DNA of 45,467 nucleotides from a bacterium (GTDB taxonomy: Bacteria; BMS3Abin14), in assembly GCA_029210545.1 (NCBI GenBank), contig JARGFV010000007.1:1-45467 (forward strand). Reading direction: 5' to 3'. The translations under genes were made by a program, and so were the position numbers. The notes beneath the pieces are model-generated. The model was not told where the DNA came from and searched no databases. It was given only the letters and a program-made list of their open reading frames with translations. Below are positions 10,437 to 21,477 of the stretch, one piece after another; the stretch's first letter is position 1, and every line of letters starts with the position of its first letter.

Positions 10437-11855
10437 ATGACAGGGGTTAACGTTCTCATCGTCGACGACGAAAAGGCCATCAGGGATGGCCTGTCCCGGG
10501 TACTGGAGAGCGAGGGGTTCAACACCGAACTCAGCGACAGTGGTTACTCCGCGCTGGAAGAGCTTCAATCCAGCGATTTTCAACTCGTCATCACTGATCT
10601 GAAGATGCCCGGAATGAGCGGCATGGAGGTTTTAAACGCAATCACCATCCTCCAGCCCAATGTCCCCGTTATTCTCATCACCGGCTACTCCACCGTGGAA
10701 AACGCCGTTGAGGTTATGAAAAAAGGCGCCTTTGACTACCTGGCCAAGCCGTTCACTCCCGACCAACTCCTTGATAAAGTCCGCAAGGCCCTCGATCATC
10801 GGGCGTTCCTGTTAGAGGAGCACTCCCCCGCCCGGCACTTGAGGGAGCAGATCGGGTTCGACACCATGGTGGGCCACAGCGCAGCCCTCGAGAAGGTGTT
10901 CTGGAGGATCAACCAGGTCGCCCCCACTGACAGCACCGTGCTTATCACCGGCGAGAGCGGCACCGGCAAGGAACTGGCGGCAAGGGGCATCCACCATGTC
11001 AGCCCGCGCCGGCAAAAACCGTTCATGGCCATCGACTGCACGACCCTCGTTGAGAGCCTCCTGGAAAGCGAGCTGTTCGGTCACATCAAGGGGTCTTTCA
11101 CAGGGGCGGTCCAGACCAAGAAAGGCCTGTTCCAGGTAGCAGACGGCGGGACCTTGTTCCTCGACGAGGTTTCCAATATCAGTCCGGCCATCCAGGCCAA
11201 GCTCCTGCGCGTCATCCAGGAGATGGTGATCACTCCCATCGGAGGGACGAAAACGATCCCCATCGATATCCGCCTTATCGCCGCCACCAACATGGATCTC
11301 AAGGAGATGGTGGCCGAGGGCACCTTCCGTGAGGACCTTTACTACAGGCTCAACATCGTGCCGATCCAGATCCCGCCATTACGCGAACGTGAGGGCGACC
11401 TTACTCTCCTTGCAAGTCATTTCATGAAAAAGTACTCCGAGGAGATCGGCAAGGACATACGGGGTATGGCGCCGGGAGCCATGAACGTGCTCAAGCGCTA
11501 CCCCTTCCCGGGCAACGTCAGGGAGCTCGAAAACGTCATTGAGAGGGCGATCGTGCTTGCGAAAGGCAACCTCATCCAGGCCGGAGACCTGGAGATCCAG
11601 GCTCCCCTTTGTGAAAACGGCATCCTCGACACCGAACGCGTTCCGAAAAGCACCGAGGAGCTCAAGTACATGAAGAAAAAGCTCCGTGAAGACGCTGTCC
11701 GGCCCCTGGAACACGCCTTTCTCCTGGACGCCCTGGAACGCAACGGATGGAACGTCACCCGCGCAGCCGAGGACGTTGGGATGCTGAGGCCTAATTTCCA
11801 GGCCCTGCTGAAAAAACAGGGGATTTCGTTGAAGGACCGTGAGGCCGGCTCCTGA
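10437..11855 (+). CDS. NtrC-family sigma-54-dependent response regulator
   Basis: The 472-residue protein has three parts. The receiver domain has LIVDDEKAIRDGL, phosphoacceptor Asp54 in VITDLKMPGMSG and Lys in YLAKPF. The AAA+ domain has Walker A GESGTGKE, Walker B GTLFLDEV and arginine-finger-type FREDLYYRLNIV. A C-terminal Fis-like HTH (NGWNVTRAAEDVGMLRPNFQALLKK) follows. The sigma-54-contacting loop reads GSFTGA instead of GAFTGA. SD GGAG precedes the ATG. It converges with the di-haem histidine kinase at 11960, its likely partner. The obvious local target is the -24/-12 promoter at 19536. The pairing is inference from position, and the domain calls are firm. Confidence 0.93.
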   Translation: MTGVNVLIVDDEKAIRDGLSRVLESEGFNTELSDSGYSALEELQSSDFQLVITDLKMPGMSGMEVLNAITILQPNVPVILITGYSTVENAVEVMKKGAFDYLAKPFTPDQLLDKVRKALDHRAFLLEEHSPARHLREQIGFDTMVGHSAALEKVFWRINQVAPTDSTVLITGESGTGKELAARGIHHVSPRRQKPFMAIDCTTLVESLLESELFGHIKGSFTGAVQTKKGLFQVADGGTLFLDEVSNISPAIQAKLLRVIQEMVITPIGGTKTIPIDIRLIAATNMDLKEMVAEGTFREDLYYRLNIVPIQIPPLREREGDLTLLASHFMKKYSEEIGKDIRGMAPGAMNVLKRYPFPGNVRELENVIERAIVLAKGNLIQAGDLEIQAPLCENGILDTERVPKSTEELKYMKKKLREDAVRPLEHAFLLDALERNGWNVTRAAEDVGMLRPNFQALLKKQGISLKDREAGS

Positions 11856-13607: not shown

Positions 13608-14138
13608 TCAGGAAGGCGAAACTCCCCTGAGTTTCGCCTTCTTCACCTTCCTCTCTTCCTTCCTGATCTGGTCTGCGCACCAGATGCGCATCTGGTAGTT
13701 CTCCAGCCCCATGATGACGAGACCCGAAACGAAAACCGCCCAGTAGGTCTCGCTGCCTGCCGCGGCATAGGAGAAAAAGATGTAAAAAGAGGCGATGTAG
13801 AAAAGGTGGGACCAGCCGTGGTAGCCACCCTGCCCCTTGGCCAGGCGCGCCAGGGTGAGGGTCAGTGCTGAAAAAACGTAAACGATGAGGGCTACACCGA
13901 TGAGTTCCAGGGGAGGAGAGGCGCCCAGAACCTCCCGGACCCTGGCCGAAAGAGGGGGAAGCAGCCGGCTGTTGGGGATGGCGAGGACAGTGATGAGGAT
14001 GAAGGCCGCAAGCCCGTACGACCCGGTCCGGGATTGGGCTCTGAGATTCCGAATCCTTCCCTCAGCCTCGAACCGCTTATCCAGGCCGGAAGGCGCCTCC
14101 TCCGACGGGGGGGAGGCGCTACCTTGTTTTTCGTCCAT
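13608..14138 (-). CDS. Four-TM membrane protein of unknown function in the respiratory/sensor cluster
   Basis: The 176-residue protein is not one I recognise. The N-terminal 40 residues are hydrophilic and cytosolic-looking. Four hydrophobic helices follow, roughly at 41-56, 77-101, 108-129 and 131-150, and the C-terminus is Lys/Arg-rich (RKEERKVKKAKLR). No cysteine-haem motif is present; a few histidines and tryptophans lie in or near the helices (GGYHGWSHLFYIASF). It lies between the kinase-less haem sensor and the haem kinase and is likely co-transcribed with both. A role as membrane partner of the sensors or of the NrfD complex is a guess. Its last nine codons form a perfect hairpin. Confidence 0.8.
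   Translation of the reverse strand: MDEKQGSASPPSEEAPSGLDKRFEAEGRIRNLRAQSRTGSYGLAAFILITVLAIPNSRLLPPLSARVREVLGASPPLELIGVALIVYVFSALTLTLARLAKGQGGYHGWSHLFYIASFYIFFSYAAAGSETYWAVFVSGLVIMGLENYQMRIWCADQIRKEERKVKKAKLRGVSPS
13615..13638 (-). other. Leader hairpin 1, overlapping the 3' end of the four-TM gene
   Basis: GGCGAAACTC (13615-13624) and GAGTTTCGCC (13629-13638) form a perfect 10-bp stem with a 4-nt loop. It is made from the codons just before the stop of the four-TM gene and is followed on the minus strand by TTCCTGATTTCC. This is an attenuator or mRNA-processing candidate before the kinase. Confidence 0.5.
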
Positions 14139-14187: not shown

Positions 14188-15048
14188 TCACGAAGGGGTC
14201 CCGCCCGACTCAGGATTCCCGTTGTCGGTGGTGCCGTCCTCGTCTCCGGGCAATTGAGCTCCCCGCCGCTCGAGGGCCATGACCTGTACCAGTTCACCCA
14301 GACGCTCGATCTCGGCGGATCCCCTGGGGATATCCACACCGATACGACCCTCACAACACTCGGAGGCGTAGTCGACCAGTCCCCTTAACGGCTGCATCAC
14401 ATTGCGCCACAGGAGAGCCGTCACGCCGCCCACCGTCAGGAATAGAATCATGACGCAAAAAATGACCAGACGCAACCTCAGCATTGCCAGGGATTTCATC
14501 AGCTTTTCCTGGGACAACCCCATATCCAGGGTTCCGAGGAGTTGCTTTTCTTCGGGATGAAAATGACACGCGGCCGAGGAACAATCAGGATCGTTGAAGA
14601 TGGGCGTCATCAGATAGAGGATCTTCTCCTTGTTTTCATTGGTATGGACAATGGCCCGGTCCATCAGGCCCAGCCTGGTAACCGGCTTCGAGCCTGTGTG
14701 GCACCGGGCGCAAAGAGGTGATCCGCGATCGGGCACGGTGCCGATCTCTTCGATGTTGCTGGAATGGAGGATCACACCTGTGCACTTGAAGATCCGGGCA
14801 TACTTCACCGGCTCCTGGGCCCCGATGTTCAGCATCATCTGGTCAATGCTGTCGTGGTCCGACTGGAGCATGGCGTACCTCATGGACCTTAGGATCGTGT
14901 CCGAGAGGGCGGCTTCGTACCGCACCGAATCTTTCATCATATCTGCCTTGACGAAGGAGTACAGCAGGATGCAGCAGACGATGGTAAACCCGGTCACCAC
15001 CATGGCCACATTAATGATCTCTTTTGTGGCAAACTGCCTGAACATCAC
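14188..15048 (-). CDS. Di-haem HAMP sensor protein lacking a kinase domain
   Basis: This 286-residue protein has TM1 (12-33) and a periplasmic domain with CARCH (113-117) and CX4CH CSSAACH followed by FHPEEKQLLGTLDM (156-162). TM2 (192-212) is followed by a HAMP-like stretch (MQPLRGLVDYASE...RLGELVQVM). It then stops after a short acidic tail. Haem motifs fall at exactly the same residue numbers as in the kinase encoded at 11960-13510, and both have the C-x-C-H-x-H-P...LLGxLD block, so the sensory halves are paralogous. Without an output domain it may heterodimerise with the kinase or report to the pseudo-receiver. It follows the NrfD gene after a strong hairpin. Confidence 0.88.
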   Translation of the reverse strand: MMFRQFATKEIINVAMVVTGFTIVCCILLYSFVKADMMKDSVRYEAALSDTILRSMRYAMLQSDHDSIDQMMLNIGAQEPVKYARIFKCTGVILHSSNIEEIGTVPDRGSPLCARCHTGSKPVTRLGLMDRAIVHTNENKEKILYLMTPIFNDPDCSSAACHFHPEEKQLLGTLDMGLSQEKLMKSLAMLRLRLVIFCVMILFLTVGGVTALLWRNVMQPLRGLVDYASECCEGRIGVDIPRGSAEIERLGELVQVMALERRGAQLPGDEDGTTDNGNPESGGTPS

Positions 15049-15127: not shown

Positions 15128-16465
15128 CTATCTCATCTCCCTGGAAACCGTTGAGGGCTGGGCCACGGCTCCATGGCTGTGAACCTTTTCGGTCGCTTTC
15201 GCATAGGCCTCCACCGGCACCTTTTTCCAGGAATACACGATGGGGAGGCGGTAAAGGATGAACCGGTAGGTCGCGATGTAAAGCCCGAACAGGGTGAAGG
15301 CGATGATCCACTCAAAAATATGGGGGATCTCCTGGTAGAGGTTCCAGTTAAAGGCGATGATGGCGGTGTTGAGTCGGTTCAGGGCGATTCCGAGCACTGC
15401 GATAAGAGCCCCGAACCGGACGATCCCGACCCGCTGGTTGCGGATGCCGTAGGCGAAGAGGACCATGGGCGCGATCACTCCAAAAAGAAGCTCGAAGGAA
15501 AACCATTGTCCCCAACCTGTGGCCAGGTATGCCCACTCGTTGTCGTGGGCGATACCGAGGAGTTTGATGGTCAGATAAGTGATGAGGGCCATGCTCGACC
15601 CCCTGGCCAACCCGATGGTGAGCCGGTCAAGGTTCTCCCTGAACGCCTCGTCGGCTCGCCAGAACATGGTCTTTTTCACGATTGAGCTCACCACGATGAC
15701 CATGCACAGCCCGCCGAAGATGGATGACACGAAGAAGAAGATCCACAGGAACTCCTGAGAGTACCACAGGGGATGGACCTTGGAGGGCGCATAGGTGAAC
15801 AGTGCTCCCAGGGCCCCCTGATGGAGAGTAGACAGGATGATACCGGCGATGGTGAGCCCGATGGTCATCTTCTTGATGAACTGCTTGGCCATTGGCCATT
15901 GAGCCCACTCGAAGAACGCCTCGGACACCTCCAGGATCTGGACGGTCAGGTAGGTGGCCACATGCCAGCCCACCAGGAACAGGACCGCCGCGGTCCCCCA
16001 GGCCACCACCATCGGGTATGGCAGGCGCCATGGCTGACCCAGGTCACAGAGGAGGTAAACCACCGCGAAAAAGTAACCCAGCAGCCCGTTTAAAAGGGCG
16101 ATGCGCAGGATGGGCTTGAAATCCTTGCGGCCGAAGAGCTCAACCGTGGTCCCCATTAGGAACCCGGATGCCGAGAGGGGCACCATGACGAAAAGCCCGA
16201 AACCGAGGAACAGCCCCCAGGGGTAATCATTGGAGGAGTGGGTGACGACTCCCAGGCCGAAGATGAACCTGTAAATGATGAGGGGGAACCCGACGGCAAA
16301 GAGCGCCCCCAGGATCCAGTTTAACGGGTTTCGGACCGCCTGGCGCAGGTACTCGCGAAGAGTCAGGCCGAGGAGCAGCTTTTCCAGGAAGCTCCAGCGG
16401 CGTCCGGAACCTTCGTCGGCCACGGAATCCACGGGACGATAACCTGTTTTCACAAGGGATTTCAT
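15128..16465 (-). CDS. NrfD/HmcC-like quinone-interacting membrane subunit
   Basis: The 445-residue integral membrane protein has about ten hydrophobic helices. Signatures of the NrfD/PsrC/HybB/DsrP superfamily are the quinone-pocket region YPWGLFLGFGLF, LCDLGQPWRLPYP and the STLHQGALGALF helix. Members exchange electrons between (mena)quinone and a periplasmic iron-sulfur protein and carry no cofactor themselves. The start is set by the SD GGAGG before ATG 16465, 2 nt after the stop of the iron-sulfur gene. With that protein and the pentahaem cytochrome it makes a three-part complex resembling the Cbc4 (CbcSTU) type of Geobacter or the O/P/J part of Dsr. The exact substrate cannot be read from sequence. 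Confidence 0.92.
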   Translation of the reverse strand: MKSLVKTGYRPVDSVADEGSGRRWSFLEKLLLGLTLREYLRQAVRNPLNWILGALFAVGFPLIIYRFIFGLGVVTHSSNDYPWGLFLGFGLFVMVPLSASGFLMGTTVELFGRKDFKPILRIALLNGLLGYFFAVVYLLCDLGQPWRLPYPMVVAWGTAAVLFLVGWHVATYLTVQILEVSEAFFEWAQWPMAKQFIKKMTIGLTIAGIILSTLHQGALGALFTYAPSKVHPLWYSQEFLWIFFFVSSIFGGLCMVIVVSSIVKKTMFWRADEAFRENLDRLTIGLARGSSMALITYLTIKLLGIAHDNEWAYLATGWGQWFSFELLFGVIAPMVLFAYGIRNQRVGIVRFGALIAVLGIALNRLNTAIIAFNWNLYQEIPHIFEWIIAFTLFGLYIATYRFILYRLPIVYSWKKVPVEAYAKATEKVHSHGAVAQPSTVSREMR

Positions 16466-16467
16466 GG

Positions 16468-17409
16468 CTATATATCCTCCCTCTTCTCGGTTGCGGGTTT
16501 CTCTTCGGCCCCCTCACCACCCCGGGTTGCCAGGCGGTGGAACCCGAGGAACAGGGCGGGCCAGATGGACAATACCATGGGAACATTGGAGAGAAAAGCC
16601 TGTGCGTTGGCCAGGATCGGTTCTTTCTGGAGGGTGGTGTCGAACCCCACCTCCTCGAAGGGAACGCCGGAAAGGTACATCCAGGACGTCCCTCCTACCT
16701 CATTTTCCCCGTAAAGGTGGCCCACGTAGCGGCCCGGGTTGACCCGGATACGCTCATAGGCAACCTTTATCAGGTTCTTCCTGTGCCCGAAGGTCAGGAC
16801 CTCCTGGGGACACGCTTCCACGCAGGCAGGCGGCCTTCCGAACTTGAGCCGGGTGTCGTAGCAGAAAATGCACTTGCGGATCACCGGGTTGAAGGCGCTG
16901 GAATAGGAGTAAGCCGGAATCCGGAAGGGGCACGCGACCATGCAGTTCCGGCACCCCACGCAGACCTTGGAGTTGTAGATCACCGCCCCCTCCTTCGTCT
17001 TCGTGTAGGCGTTGACGAAGCAGCTGGTCAGGCAGGCCGGCTCGTTACAATGGTTGCACTGGATCTTCCGGTACGCCGGCTGCCCTTCCTTGCCGGCCTC
17101 GTACCGGTTCACCACGGTAAAAGCGTTCTCGTCGGTCCTTCTCTTCTGTGTGCCCCCGTGGTGCAGCTCATCGAATACCGAGTGGTCGTCGAAGGGCACC
17201 GCGGGAGCGGGCAGTTTCTGTTCTTCGTTGCACGCGGCCTCACAGGTCCGACAGCCGATGCAGCGGGTCAGGTCCACCAGGACTCCCATTCCATCGGGGT
17301 AGCCGGTGAAGCCGGCAGCACCGATAGCTTTCCCGGACAAGGTGAACGTCCCTGCTGCCGCTCCCGCCAGGCTCACCGAAAGAAACTTTCTTCGGGTCAT
17401 CTTACTCAT
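16468..17409 (-). CDS. Tat-exported 4x[4Fe-4S] ferredoxin-like subunit
   Basis: The start is set at ATG 17409 (SD GGGAGGAAGAC), giving 313 residues that begin [16 protein letters not shown], a Tat signal with the twin arginines at 6-7. Cysteine clusters are [11 protein letters not shown] (50-60), [13 protein letters not shown] (118-130), [11 protein letters not shown] (150-160) and CIFC...ACVEAC (180-200), enough for four [4Fe-4S] centres as in HybA, DsrO and PsrB proteins. A hydrophobic stretch near the C-terminus ([15 protein letters not shown]) may anchor it to the periplasmic face next to NrfD. It would pass electrons between the NrfD quinone site and the pentahaem cytochrome. Confidence 0.93.
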
Positions 17410-17478: not shown

Positions 17479-18003
17479 TCAGTGAGCGGAGCTGGTACCT
17501 TCACCAGATGGCGCATATTTTCCCGAGTGGTAAAAAGCGTCTCCGGCCTCGGTCCTCTCGTGGCAATCCTCACATCCGACAGGACCGCCCATTTCGTTGT
17601 GACAGTTGAGACAGTTGAGGTGGTAAGCGGCTTTCAATCCCGGCTTGTCGATGTGGTAGACGCTGGGGTCCGTCTCCTTGGCAGTAACGGCCTCGGCGGA
17701 GAAGGGGTCGACAGCGTGGCATGTCTGGCACGTCTGGGCCTCCAGGGTGTCCTCGGGGCCGTGACACCGCGCGCACTTCTCGTTGGTTGTGGGAACACCC
17801 GCGGCATGGTGGTGGCATTCGGTACAGTCGGCCGCGATATCAAGGTGCATATCGTGGTCGAACTCGGCTCCCCCATAAAGGTGAGCCAGGTTATCAAGGG
17901 TCACTGTCTCCGGCAGCTTGAGAGTATCTCCCTGGCCGCTTAAGGGGAGACAGATCACCATCAGCACCATCACCGAGCCGGCAATCCAATTGAACGGTTT
18001 CAT
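17479..18003 (-). CDS. Pentahaem periplasmic cytochrome c
   Basis: The start is at ATG 18003, directed by AGGAGGAAGATC; the upstream open frame is not translated in my view. The protein has 174 residues with a signal peptide (1-24) and five CXXCH haem sites at residues 60, 77, 92, 131 and 144. Surrounding histidines (for example FDHDMHLDIAADCTECHHH) are of cytochrome c3/c7 type and imply bis-His ligation. It would be the periplasmic electron carrier or terminus of the adjoining iron-sulfur/NrfD complex. Its haem is presumably attached by a System II machinery that includes the CcsA-type protein at 1580. Confidence 0.92.
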   Translation of the reverse strand: MKPFNWIAGSVMVLMVICLPLSGQGDTLKLPETVTLDNLAHLYGGAEFDHDMHLDIAADCTECHHHAAGVPTTNEKCARCHGPEDTLEAQTCQTCHAVDPFSAEAVTAKETDPSVYHIDKPGLKAAYHLNCLNCHNEMGGPVGCEDCHERTEAGDAFYHSGKYAPSGEGTSSAH

Positions 18004-18076: not shown

Positions 18077-18280
18077 TCACTCACTTACTCTCGTGAACGA
18101 ATCGGCCTCCCGCTCTGAAGGCGTCTTGATGACGTACTTGTAAAAGAGCGGAAAGATGGCGAAGAATGCGACGCAGATCAGGTACTCCACGGCCTTGATG
18201 TAGTTGTAGAAGTCCACCAGAGTGTAGACCTTGACCACATCGCCGACGGAGCCGAACAGCTGTCGTATCAGGTCCAGCAT
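18077..18280 (-). CDS. Small single-TM membrane protein of the respiratory cluster
   Basis: The start is taken at ATG 18280 (MLDLIRQLFGSVGD), preceded by GGGAGGGAG, giving 67 residues. One membrane helix (about 34-52, YLICVAFFAIFPLFYKYVI) is followed by a charged tail. The gene lies directly before the cytochrome gene and is likely co-transcribed with it. I do not recognise the family. Short one-helix subunits often stabilise respiratory complexes, and that is the simplest reading here. Confidence 0.75.
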   Translation of the reverse strand: MLDLIRQLFGSVGDVVKVYTLVDFYNYIKAVEYLICVAFFAIFPLFYKYVIKTPSEREADSFTRVSE

Positions 18281-18410: not shown

Positions 18411-18671
18411 TTACTCGATGATCTCCCGGCCCGTATCGGTAACCGCGACCTTTTTTCTGGCGGTGACCTTTTTCGCGAAAGCCGAGATCGTGCCCATCAT
18501 CAGGATCAGGGCCGGAACCATTTGGGCCACGATGATGAGGGCGACGACACCCAGGAACAGCAGGACCATGATCCCGCTCTGGTAGGTCTGGGTCGTGTCC
18601 ACGGCCCATGCGTACCCCGCTGTGGACAGAACGACCGCCGTCATGTTCAGCAAAGCTCTCAGCGTTTTCAT
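18411..18671 (-). CDS. Small membrane protein with QxVPAL motif, paralogue 2
   Basis: The 86-residue protein starts behind a strong SD (AAGGAGGATGTC). It has a signal-peptide-like N-terminus (to about 23, GYAWA), a short linker (VDTTQTYQSG), one long hydrophobic helix MVLLFLGVVALIIVAQMVPALILMM and a basic tail (FAKKVTARKK). The helix aligns with that of the 91-residue protein at 19187-19462: LLFL...GVV...Q-x-VPAL-x-L with a following S-x-F. So the two are paralogues on either side of the receiver-like gene. The function is unknown to me. Their position at the head of the cluster suggests a membrane signalling or scaffold role. Confidence 0.8.
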   Translation of the reverse strand: MKTLRALLNMTAVVLSTAGYAWAVDTTQTYQSGIMVLLFLGVVALIIVAQMVPALILMMGTISAFAKKVTARKKVAVTDTGREIIE

Positions 18672-18698: not shown

Positions 18699-19115
18699 TC
18701 AGGAATGTCCCTTGGCCGCGGCACCAACCGGCCCTGATAGCCCGGTGATGTTGGCGAAAGCACACCTGACAGCCTGGAGCAGTTCGTCCCTGTCCTCCTC
18801 CCGTGCCGGCTTGAGGGCATGGTAAAAGATCCCCTCGCGCCTGAGCTTTCGAAGGAGGGGCAGGGATTCCTCGTTGGACACGAGGATTATAGTGAGGTTT
18901 TTGTTGCACTTTTTCAGGATCGGAATGAGGTCGCCCGCCGGCATGTTGTCGAACACGTTTCCCAGCAGTACGACCGGGGCTTCCTTCCTGAGGACATCCT
19001 TCAAGACCAGGTCCACCGAATCGGGAGCAACGATCTGGTAATCCTTGTCTCCGAAAACCTTCATGACATGATCCCTGGTCCTGGGATCCTCGTCAGCGAT
19101 TATCAGCAGTCTCAT
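18699..19115 (-). CDS. Receiver-like protein lacking the phosphoacceptor aspartate
   Basis: The start is at ATG 19115 (MRLLIIADEDPRTRD) after GGGAGAAGAGG, giving 138 residues. The fold elements of a CheY-like receiver are all there: beta-1 LLIIADED with an acidic pocket, beta-4 TIILVSNEE with the Thr/Ser position, and the conserved Lys in HALKP (102). At the phosphorylation site, however, beta-3 reads APVVLLGNVFDNMP: glycine replaces the usual aspartate, and the nearest Asp is four residues on. It is therefore probably a pseudo-receiver that cannot be phosphorylated normally. It sits between the two QxVPAL membrane-protein genes and may bind one of them or the kinase. Confidence 0.85.
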   Translation of the reverse strand: MRLLIIADEDPRTRDHVMKVFGDKDYQIVAPDSVDLVLKDVLRKEAPVVLLGNVFDNMPAGDLIPILKKCNKNLTIILVSNEESLPLLRKLRREGIFYHALKPAREEDRDELLQAVRCAFANITGLSGPVGAAAKGHS

Positions 19116-19186: not shown

Positions 19187-19462
19187 TTAGACCTGCTCAC
19201 TGCCGGCAGCATCGACCTTATGGCTGCTCCGCTTGAATACCGAAACAAGAAGGGAGCTGAACAGAACCAGCGCTGGTACCAGCTGGAGCAGAACGACAAC
19301 CCCCAGGAAGGCCAGGAAAAGCAGGAGCATGGGGCTCATCCCGCCCGAACCAGGCGCGCCGGCGCTATCGGCATTGGCCAGCGTCGCGGTAAGGAGAACC
19401 GGGCAGATCATCGCCGAAACCCGCCTCCTCAGGACCATCAGCCTTTCCACATTCCTTTTCAT
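19187..19462 (-). CDS. Small membrane protein with QxVPAL motif, paralogue 1; first gene of the cluster
   Basis: The 91-residue protein starts at ATG 19462 behind AGGAGGTAAAGGTC. The N-terminus is basic and hydrophobic (signal-like, cut perhaps after LANA). A Ser/Gly/Pro linker comes next, then one long helix MLLLFLAFLGVVVLLQLVPALVLF and a basic tail (SVFKRSSHK). It is paralogous to the protein at 18411-18671. It is the first gene after the sigma-54 promoter, with a 5' leader of roughly 60 nt. No known family is recognised. Confidence 0.8.
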   Translation of the reverse strand: MKRNVERLMVLRRRVSAMICPVLLTATLANADSAGAPGSGGMSPMLLLFLAFLGVVVLLQLVPALVLFSSLLVSVFKRSSHKVDAAGSEQV

Positions 19463-19535
19463 GACCTTTACCTCCTCCTTCTCTTGGGGCCCCCTGCTCC
19501 ATCATTGGAGCCTGTCCCTCTACGCTTATGCTTAG

Positions 19536-19552
19536 GGCATCAAACGTGCCAA
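19536..19552 (-). promoter_or_regulatory. Sigma-54 (-24/-12) promoter of the haem-sensor/respiratory cluster
   Basis: Read on the minus strand, the site is TTGGCACGTTTGATGCC. It matches the -24 block TTGGCACG fully, has the obligatory GG-N10-GC spacing and matches TGC of the -12 block. Transcription would begin near 19525, about 60 nt before the first start codon at 19462. A sigma-54 activator gene lies at the far end of the same locus. Confidence 0.8.
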
Positions 19553-19859
19553 AAGGGATCAGTCACGTATATTTTTTCAAGTTCTTGTTTTTAAAAGGCT
19601 TTTATAAAACAATTCCAACGGTCCGGCAGCAGCTTAATAGGGAAACGTATATAAAAAATATGGGAATACAAAGACAAATCACTGGGCCAGGATAGTGGTA
19701 AGCGCATAACTATATGTAATTGTAAGCTTTTATTTATATTGAGGGGTGTATGGTGGAGATATACAGGCACGCGCCCCTGGAGATCAGGCTACAGGGGCCC
19801 GTACAGTGAGTGCATTAAGTGCAGTTTAGTGCAGCAATGCGCTTTTGCACTCATGCACC
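19553..19859. other. AT-rich divergent control region between the cluster and comM
   Basis: No gene is visible. The stretch 19560-19740 is far more AT-rich than its surroundings and has the near-repeats ACGTATATTTTTT (19572) and ACGTATATAAAAAATATG (19645). It is a likely place for activator binding upstream of the sigma-54 site and for the comM promoter. Further on are a GCCCCTG/CAGGGGC hairpin (19773-19798) and three AGTGCA repeats (19808-19834) closed by TGCACTC (19846-19852). I could not identify a clear paired enhancer site. Confidence 0.5.
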
Positions 19860-19969
19860 GGACTCTTGAGACCAATTTGACACATTTTTTGGCTTCAGGT
19901 TTGCACGGATCATCCCAATATCAGCTAACTTCAGCCAAAAAGGAGGAGACAAATTGGTCTCAAGAGTCC
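19860..19969. repeat. Perfect 20-bp inverted repeat enclosing the comM SD and start codon
   Basis: GGACTCTTGAGACCAATTTG (19860-19879) is the exact reverse complement of 19950-19969. A nested 9-bp pair, TTTTTGGCT (19886-19894) with AGCCAAAAA (19933-19941), lies inside, and TGCAC blocks flank both arms. In an RNA hairpin the comM SD (AGGAGGAG) lies at and just beyond the base of the inner stem, largely in the internal loop, while the TTG start (19954) and the first five codons are in the outer stem. Confidence 0.85.
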
Positions 19970-21477
19970 TGTCGTGCACCATCAGCGGTCTCGAGGCGGT
20001 TCCCGTCCACGTGGAACTGGACCTCACCAACGGTCTCCCGGGGCTGACCATCGTGGGGATGGGGGACACAGCGGTCCGGGAGAGCAGGGAACGGGTTATC
20101 GCGGCCCTGAGAAACTCCGGGTACGAGCTGCCCCCCTCACGGGTCACGGTGAACCTGGCCCCCGCTGACCTGAAGAAGGAGGGAAGCCGCTTCGACCTTC
20201 CTATCGCCCTGGGGATACTCTCCGCCTTGAGGGCGTTTCCGTCCGACGCCCTGGACGGCTACCTGGTCATGGGAGAGCTCTCCCTGACCGGAGAGATCGT
20301 GGGCCGGGAGGCGGCTTTTCCCGCGGCCCTCCTGGCACGAAGGGCGGGGTTGACCGGGATGATCCTGCCGGACGAGATGGCAGCGGAAGCCTCCCTCGCC
20401 GACGGGTGCATGTCGCTGCCTGTCCGCAGCCTGATGGAGGTCACCGAGTTTCTCAGGGGACAAAGGGAACTGAACGCCGTAGCCCCTGTCTCTGTCCGGA
20501 TACCGGACAAAAGCCCCGACCTTTCAGAGGTGGCAGGGCAGGAGATGGCGGTGAGAGCCCTTACGATCGCCGCTTCGGGAGGACATAATATCCTTTTTTC
20601 CGGACCACCGGGCTCAGGCAAGACCATGTTGTGTAAAAGGCTTCCCGGCATCCTGCCATCGTTATCCAACGACCAGGCCATGGAGGTCACCGCCATCCAC
20701 AGCGTAGCGGGACTCCTGTCCTACGGGGACGGGATCATCAGAACGCCCCCCTTTCGCGCTCCGCACCACACTATCTCCCACGCAGGCCTCGCAGGCGGCG
20801 GCTCCAACCCGAGGCCGGGAGAGGTCACCCTCGCCCACCGCGGAGTGTTGTTTTTAGACGAGATGTCGGAGTTCTCCCGCTCGGCGCTGGAAACATTGAG
20901 GCAGCCGCTGGAGGACAAAAGGATCGTGGTATCGAGGGCTGCCAGGTCGGTGAGTTATCCGGCAGACTTTCTCCTCGCCGGGACCGCCAACCCCTGCCCT
21001 TGCGGCTACCTTGGCCACGACACGAGACCTTGCACCTGTCCCCCTTCGGCGGTGGCCCGCTACCGGCGCCGCATCTCCGGGCCCCTCATGGACAGGATCG
21101 ACCTCGTCGTCCCGGTTCGGGCCCTCGAACCCGGGATCATCGCCGAGGGAGGACACGGGACCCGGTCTCAGTCGGTAAGGGAAAAGGTCCTGGCCTCCCG
21201 CGCCGTGCAGGCCGAGAGGGCGGCGGGAGGGATGCCGGTCACCAACGCGGCCCTGTCCCCCGAACAGCTGCGAGACGTGTGCCCCCTGGAGCCGGCCCAC
21301 AGGAAGATCATGGACGGTGCGGTACGCAACCTGGGGCTGACGGCCCGGGGCTACCACAGGATCATGCGGGTGGCCCGCACCATCGCGGACATGGAGGGGG
21401 TGGAACACGTCACACCTGAGCACCTGGGAGAAGCGCTGCAATACAGGCCTGTTATGGAGGGACCGATAAGGTTCTAG
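19954..21477 (+). CDS. comM: ComM/YifB family Mg-chelatase-like AAA+ ATPase
   Basis: ComM is a hexameric helicase that extends branch migration when incoming DNA is integrated in natural transformation; relatives are widespread also in species not known to be competent. The 507-residue protein has the N-terminal ChlI-like domain (DLTNGLPGLTIVGMGDTAV, VTVNLAPADLKKEGSRFDLPIALGIL), Walker A SGPPGSGKTMLCKRLPGILP, Walker B GVLFLDEM and the cysteine-rich NPCPCGYLGHDTRPCTCP before the sensor region RISGPLMDRIDL. The start is TTG at 19954 with SD AGGAGGAG, inside a 20-bp inverted repeat that could block initiation. That control is inference. Confidence 0.95.
   Translation: MVSRVLSCTISGLEAVPVHVELDLTNGLPGLTIVGMGDTAVRESRERVIAALRNSGYELPPSRVTVNLAPADLKKEGSRFDLPIALGILSALRAFPSDALDGYLVMGELSLTGEIVGREAAFPAALLARRAGLTGMILPDEMAAEASLADGCMSLPVRSLMEVTEFLRGQRELNAVAPVSVRIPDKSPDLSEVAGQEMAVRALTIAASGGHNILFSGPPGSGKTMLCKRLPGILPSLSNDQAMEVTAIHSVAGLLSYGDGIIRTPPFRAPHHTISHAGLAGGGSNPRPGEVTLAHRGVLFLDEMSEFSRSALETLRQPLEDKRIVVSRAARSVSYPADFLLAGTANPCPCGYLGHDTRPCTCPPSAVARYRRRISGPLMDRIDLVVPVRALEPGIIAEGGHGTRSQSVREKVLASRAVQAERAAGGMPVTNAALSPEQLRDVCPLEPAHRKIMDGAVRNLGLTARGYHRIMRVARTIADMEGVEHVTPEHLGEALQYRPVMEGPIRF

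Follow-up and report, generated by a model that had tools for sequence, protein, structure and literature searches.

The window, as we call the whole 45,467-nucleotide stretch of bacterial DNA analysed here, carries on its minus strand a cluster of genes for a cytochrome, an Fe-S protein, an NrfD-type membrane subunit and proteins with putative sensory roles, preceded by an AT-rich stretch in which several regulatory elements can be predicted (Table 1). Read from the predicted -24/-12 promoter, the gene order is smA, P0004, smB, smC, P0007, P0006, P0001, P0005, P0008 and P0003, with P0002 at the far end of the cluster.

Table 1. Genes and predicted regulatory elements at the locus, in window coordinates.
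Feature	Position	Strand	Basis or remark
P0002, NtrC-type response regulator (receiver, sigma-54 activator AAA+, Fis-type HTH), proposed activator	10437..11855	plus	domain matches
P0003, histidine kinase, same haem-motif sensor domain as P0005	11960..13510	minus	
P0008, membrane protein, no family	13608..14138	minus	
P0005, kinase-less Cache-like sensor protein with CxxCH and CX4CH	14188..15045	minus	
P0001, NrfD/HmcC-like membrane subunit	15128..16465	minus	368 bits, cut-off 550
P0006, HmcB-like Fe-S protein, Tat-like leader	16468..17409	minus	382 bits, cut-off 420
P0007, periplasmic c-type cytochrome, 5 CxxCH	17479..18003	minus	
smC, small membrane protein, weak HmcD resemblance (E 0.13)	18077..18280	minus	
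smB, second small membrane protein	18411..18671	minus	
P0004, receiver-only protein, phospho-acceptor Asp replaced by Gly	18699..19115	minus	
smA, small membrane protein with signal peptide, first cluster gene	19187..19462	minus	
-24/-12 sigma-54 promoter (predicted) TTGGCACGTTTGATGCC	19536..19552	minus	near-consensus match and conservation at relatives
IHF-like site (predicted) AAACAAGAACTTG	19578..19590	minus	8/9 to WATCAANNNNTTR; 39 bp before -24 TGG
Activator site 2 (predicted, degenerate, one half kept) CCCATATTTTTTATATACG	19646..19664	minus	113 bp before TGG; second-best PWM match
Activator site 1 (predicted), palindrome TGTATATCTCCACCATACA	19747..19765	minus	214 bp before TGG; best PWM match in window

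Neither smA nor smB has a Pfam or NCBIfam family match. Of 44 readable relatives, 42 have Gly or Ser at the phospho-acceptor position of P0004 and two have Asp, and P0004 is predicted to be a conserved pseudo-receiver within the operon. The sensor region of the kinase P0003 is homologous to P0005 (29% identity over about 250 residues), with CxxCH and CX4CH motifs in both. A PDB sequence search with P0005 returned chance matches only, while a fold search with its AlphaFold model (mean pLDDT 78.7, pTM 0.58) matched the Cache-like sensor folds of WalK, DctB and CitA and the sensor domain of Geobacter GSU0935. Unlike WalK, DctB and CitA, none of which is known to carry haem, P0005 adds the CxxCH and CX4CH motifs and is without a kinase domain. 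The P0005 orthologues of six loci (L028, L030, L035, L037, L038 and L042) have no CxxCH-type match, and the haem of P0005 may be dispensable in one lineage.

The sigma-54 consensus against which sites were scored is TGGCACG-N4-TTGCW. The element TTGGCACGTTTGATGCC agrees with it at 10 of 12 specified positions: as had been claimed for it, all eight bases of TTGGCACG are present in the -24 block and the GG-N10-GC spacing is exact, whereas the -12 block reads ATGCC against TTGCW and agrees at TGC only. The RpoN consensus given for Geobacter in the available text of PMC2725144, TTGGCACGGTTTTTGCT, is closely similar to the consensus used here. Within the 45-kb window, searched on both strands, TGGCACG-N5-TGC occurs once, at this site, and the relaxed pattern TGGCA[CT][AG]-N5-TGC again finds this site alone. 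Across the 2.72-Mb genome there are three matches to TTGGCACG-N5-TGC and none to the reversed pattern; TGGCAC-N5-TTGCW with up to three mismatches was too loose to inform, giving 129 matches against a chance mean of 157.

The site lies 73 nt from the ATG at 19462, which is preceded by a good Shine-Dalgarno run, AGAAGGAGGAGG. From the usual spacing, transcription would be expected to start near 19525, leaving a leader of about 63 nt; the distance from the site to the start codon had earlier been put at about 60 nt. The activator gene that had been placed 8 kb away at the other end of the cluster is indeed there, convergent with the cluster, with its near end 7.7 kb and its start codon 9.1 kb from the site.

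Upstream of the site, the G+C content falls to 34% (19553-19735), compared with 58% for the window. Sigma-70-like boxes easily arise in DNA of this composition, and a sigma-70 promoter in the AT-rich stretch might drive the operon, leaving the -24/-12 match incidental. We consider this highly unlikely, since a consensus scan of 19300-20050 found no sigma-70-type site on the minus strand, its single plus-strand hit comparing with a shuffle mean of 0.6, and since among relatives the letters of the -24/-12 blocks are held by selection while the spacer varies. There may nevertheless be a second, basal promoter.

Conservation was assessed at 85 loci, comprising 80 from a genome-contig scan with P0001, four of the window's own family (L114-L117, of which L115 repeats L006) and the window. 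Seven loci were dropped because fewer than 300 bp of contig precede the first cluster gene, or because the contig has no such gene. The search for sites, in which GG and GC had to match, covered the 600 bp preceding that gene. The remainder fall into 51 loci with the architecture of the window and 27, mostly from Desulfobulbales, without the smC and sensor genes, a division made by hand after earlier results were known and reproduced by the rule 'smC homologue upstream of NrfD', bar three loci already dropped for contig ends. A site scoring at least 9/12 is present at 48 of the 51 same-architecture loci, whereas shuffles average 4.5 and never exceed 9, and the antisense strand and reversed sequence give 4 each. 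At least 10/12 is reached at 36 loci (shuffle mean 1.1) and at least 11/12 at 17 (shuffle mean 0.07). Among the misses, L032 and L035 carry a site beyond the 600-bp frame, and the third, L015, has just an 8-of-12 site. In the group with the other architecture, the count at 9/12 or better is near chance (5/27, shuffle mean 3.1) and that at 10/12 or better somewhat above it (4/27; shuffle mean 0.6, maximum 2). As in the window, the start codon of the first gene in the relatives is preceded by a Shine-Dalgarno sequence, and it typically lies 50-80 nt downstream of the site.

The sequence-only reading had taken the site for the sigma-54 promoter of the haem/NrfD cluster and had suggested searching upstream of orthologous clusters. 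That search supports the proposal, and the outcome named in advance as refuting it, lack of the site in relatives with the cluster, did not occur; the rpoN gene encoded in the same genome and a linked regulator with a sigma-54 activator domain and a conserved GSFTGA motif support it too. A chance match would be conceivable for a single site, for the three exact TTGGCACG-N5-TGC sites in the genome indicate that isolated matches do occur; conservation so far above the shuffle maximum contradicts it, as does the arrangement of the other elements described below, and its probability is vanishingly small. Comparison between loci thus makes us highly confident that the predicted -24/-12 promoter is real.

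The DNA upstream of the site also proved to be patterned. In 46 upstream sequences, left after removing four near-identical loci, the dyad GTAT-N9-ATAC is present in 34 and GTAT-N10-TACA in 36, whereas any dyad reached at most 12 in three shuffled sets. A symmetric PWM finds the corresponding palindrome, TGTATA-N7-TATACA, in 46 of 50 loci, for four of which (L018, L034, L032 and L035) the promoter position in the palindrome and IHF analyses was chosen by hand among candidates. There are 76 PWM matches in the 22.5 kb upstream of the site, compared with 22 in 1.45 Mb elsewhere; this first PWM was trained on the same loci as it scored, and the analysis was repeated with the window's family held out. 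Over the whole window, the held-out PWM places its best match at 19765-19747 (20.3 bits) and its second at 19664-19646 (5.8 bits), 101 bp apart; none of 2000 shuffles reached the score of the former, which is one of two single-mismatch sites to the palindrome consensus in its genome. With up to two mismatches, the palindrome is found at 15 places in the genome and at 18 in the reversed control, so that only the top ranks are informative. A search for direct or inverted repeats shared by the window and two relatives found none.

The palindrome is usually present in two copies, typically 114-118 and 214-220 bp before the TGG of the -24 block, and among the 39 copy-to-copy spacings of 60-130 bp that were counted, 26 measure 101-103 bp. 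Outlying distances of the near palindrome lie one helical turn away, at 103-105 and 124-126 bp. Between the near palindrome and the promoter lies a further element. The IHF consensus used for scoring is WATCAANNNNTTR; its matches on the promoter strand hold a fixed place 39-42 bp before the TGG, with the peak at 40-41 bp, and 19 of the 50 loci match at 8 or 9 of 9 positions in the 38-48 bp bin, whereas the count for every other 11-bp bin is 7 or lower. A closely similar IHF consensus is printed in PMC7962754. In the genome, an ihfB-type gene clears the family cut-off and an ihfA-type gene narrowly misses its own (118.7 bits compared with 120.25). A weaker cluster of IHF-like matches is seen 170-180 bp before the TGG, between both activator sites, at 7 of the 50 loci. 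The suggestion that the AT-rich 180 bp upstream of the promoter would suit IHF or activator binding thus gains substance from the elements predicted there, namely a pair of palindromes in phase and an IHF-like site at a fixed position.

Small AT-rich palindromes are generally known to serve further classes of regulator too, and the palindrome could be the operator of an unlinked repressor or other regulator, with sigma-54 activation proceeding from another, unseen site. This explanation is quite unlikely: the helical phasing of the palindrome to the -24 box is fixed, and its distance from the box is typical of enhancers, unlike that of operators, with the IHF-like site in between. Beyond the far activator site, a run of GTGCA/TGCAC motifs occupies 19808-19860, between that site and a divergent comM-like gene. 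In six family relatives, no such run appears in the 500 bp preceding the site, and it is therefore either private to this genome or part of the divergent gene.

The protein that would act from these palindromes is probably P0002, whose family adjoins the cluster in most loci, often divergently oriented or just before the cluster. The linked NtrC-type proteins have Asp54 in 44 of 44 readable cases and GSFTGA in all 45 readable rows of 47, and they share a distinctive recognition helix, R-x-N-F-Q. The palindrome is present at 41 of 45 loci with the RxNFQ helix and at none of 20 with another helix, an association that is confounded with phylogeny (of the 85 loci, 7 had been dropped for contig ends, 6 have no gene for the regulator on the contig and 7 could not be read). 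The four loci with the helix but no above-threshold palindrome are L027, L047, L067 and L114, the last a relative of the same family.

The -24/-12 promoter might also be real but be driven by another enhancer-binding protein of the genome, which would then own the palindrome. There are 18 sigma-54 activator-domain matches in the genome, and the gene for P0002 lies 8-9 kb off in convergent orientation. We nonetheless judge this explanation unlikely, given the adjacency of the P0002 family to the cluster in most loci and the co-occurrence of palindrome and helix, and since in this genome only P0002 carries the RxNFQ helix. P0002 therefore remains, on the sequence comparisons, the likely activator acting on the palindromes.

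The elements were also combined into a single code and sought away from the main promoters. Of the 22 palindromes located there, 18 were examined. For seven of them (at L029, L031, L032, which has two, L037, L038 and L041), a -24/-12 site lies 115-117 bp away, or 218 bp away where the palindrome is the outer one of a pair. No site stands at that distance from the remaining 11, save for L015, with an 8-of-12 site 113 bp from its palindrome. In 30 whole genomes (about 102 Mb), a strict form of the combined code gave 17 matches and its control none. Eight of these are main clusters and four are nearby satellites. The five remote ones, three of them in Malonomonas rubra and two in Desulfuromonas sp. 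BM522, all precede smA/smB-type genes, although three of the five genes run off the contig end and their type was judged from the first codons. Orphan smA/smB genes with the same promoter code stand at contig ends in L175, L176, L177, L178 and L179, which suggests that these orphan genes are repeated copies. The strict code is not found in the window itself, and it is present in 3 of 12 genomes of the window's class and in 13 of 30 others; its absence from many genomes is explained by the variation of real sites, and with 12 genomes of the class covered the class-wide strict search is uninformative.

Taken together, these elements describe a predicted sigma-54 promoter of an Hmc/Cbc4-like quinone-cytochrome operon, with two activator sites, one IHF bend and its own two-component pair, a reading to which we assign a probability of roughly 0.87. 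Dozens of distantly related bacteria share the layout, which therefore represents a real, testable switch and not a chance match. What sequence and comparison of the loci establish is that the promoter elements are present, conserved and set in a fixed geometry, and that the palindrome goes with the helix. The switch would operate as follows. The Cache-like domain of the membrane kinase P0003, with its CxxCH and CX4CH motifs, would detect a redox or haem-ligand signal in the periplasm, and the kinase would phosphorylate P0002. P0002 dimers would bind both palindromes, about 101 bp or about ten helical turns apart, and a bend made by IHF would lie between the -24 box and the nearer palindrome. 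The AAA+ GSFTGA domain could then remodel sigma-54 RNA polymerase at -24/-12, and the promoter, once active, would start a transcript near 19525 that presumably extends through the cluster and supplies a complex acting between quinones and cytochromes.

A broader reading is tentative, and we would give it somewhat less than even odds. It holds that the cluster is a redox-feedback regulon, in which the haem Cache kinase P0003 and its kinase-less twin P0005 would read the redox state of periplasmic cytochromes or quinones, and in which one NtrC-type protein, through a private palindrome, would switch on only the NrfD complex and the scattered smA/smB genes, the promoter geometry being common to more than one lineage of phylum rank.

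Among known systems, the predicted regulation of ohcBAC by DVU3142 in Desulfovibrio comes closest. There too, according to the available text of PMC4641369, a sigma-54 promoter and an enhancer-binding-protein site, both predicted from comparative genomics, precede an electron-transfer operon of cytochrome, Fe-S and membrane subunits, with the regulator gene adjoining. The same text does not give the binding sequence of DVU3142. DVU3142 is described there as a single-component GAFTGA regulator and Ohc as an octahaem cytochrome with a haem-b subunit, in contrast to the GSFTGA response regulator, haem-motif kinase and NrfD found here. In gene make-up, by which alone the two are likened, the cluster also resembles Geobacter Cbc4 (cbcSTU), where the available parts of the sources describe a c-type cytochrome, an Fe-S protein and a b-type/NrfD-like subunit encoded in one operon (PMC11434368, PMC7894505, PMC10989804); genes for a cytochrome c, an Fe-S protein and an NrfD-type subunit are likewise adjacent here. 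The present cluster differs from Cbc4 in its additional smA, smB, smC, pseudo-receiver and haem sensor protein and in its own two-component pair, and the available text of PMC2725144 notes no sigma-54 promoter for cbcSTU. As to the Hmc complex, HmcB and HmcC are the best NCBIfam matches of P0006 and P0001, and smC is weakly like HmcD; P0006 and P0001 nevertheless score below the HmcB and HmcC equivalog cut-offs, and the P0007 cytochrome has 5 haem motifs as opposed to the 16 of hexadecahaem HmcA.

The kind of control proposed, a sigma-54 promoter with an enhancer, is already known, whereas the regulon is new; in the limited set of papers searched, we found no description of the palindrome or the regulon. 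A single promoter guess has become a predictive code of palindrome, IHF-like site and -24/-12 element, which predicts when anaerobes related to Geobacter and Desulfuromonas would build one quinone-cytochrome complex, the triggers of such complexes being poorly known, and which nominates smA and smB as its partners. Citrifermentans bremense, Geomonas and Malonomonas rubra are cultured carriers of the code, which is therefore testable now.

Elsewhere in the genome of the window, another exact TTGGCACG-N5-TGC site (L002, positions 1501-1516) lies directly 3' of an NtrC-type activator gene and about 60 nt 5' of a gene for a small secreted protein with a Shine-Dalgarno sequence, and from this setting it also looks like a real sigma-54 site.
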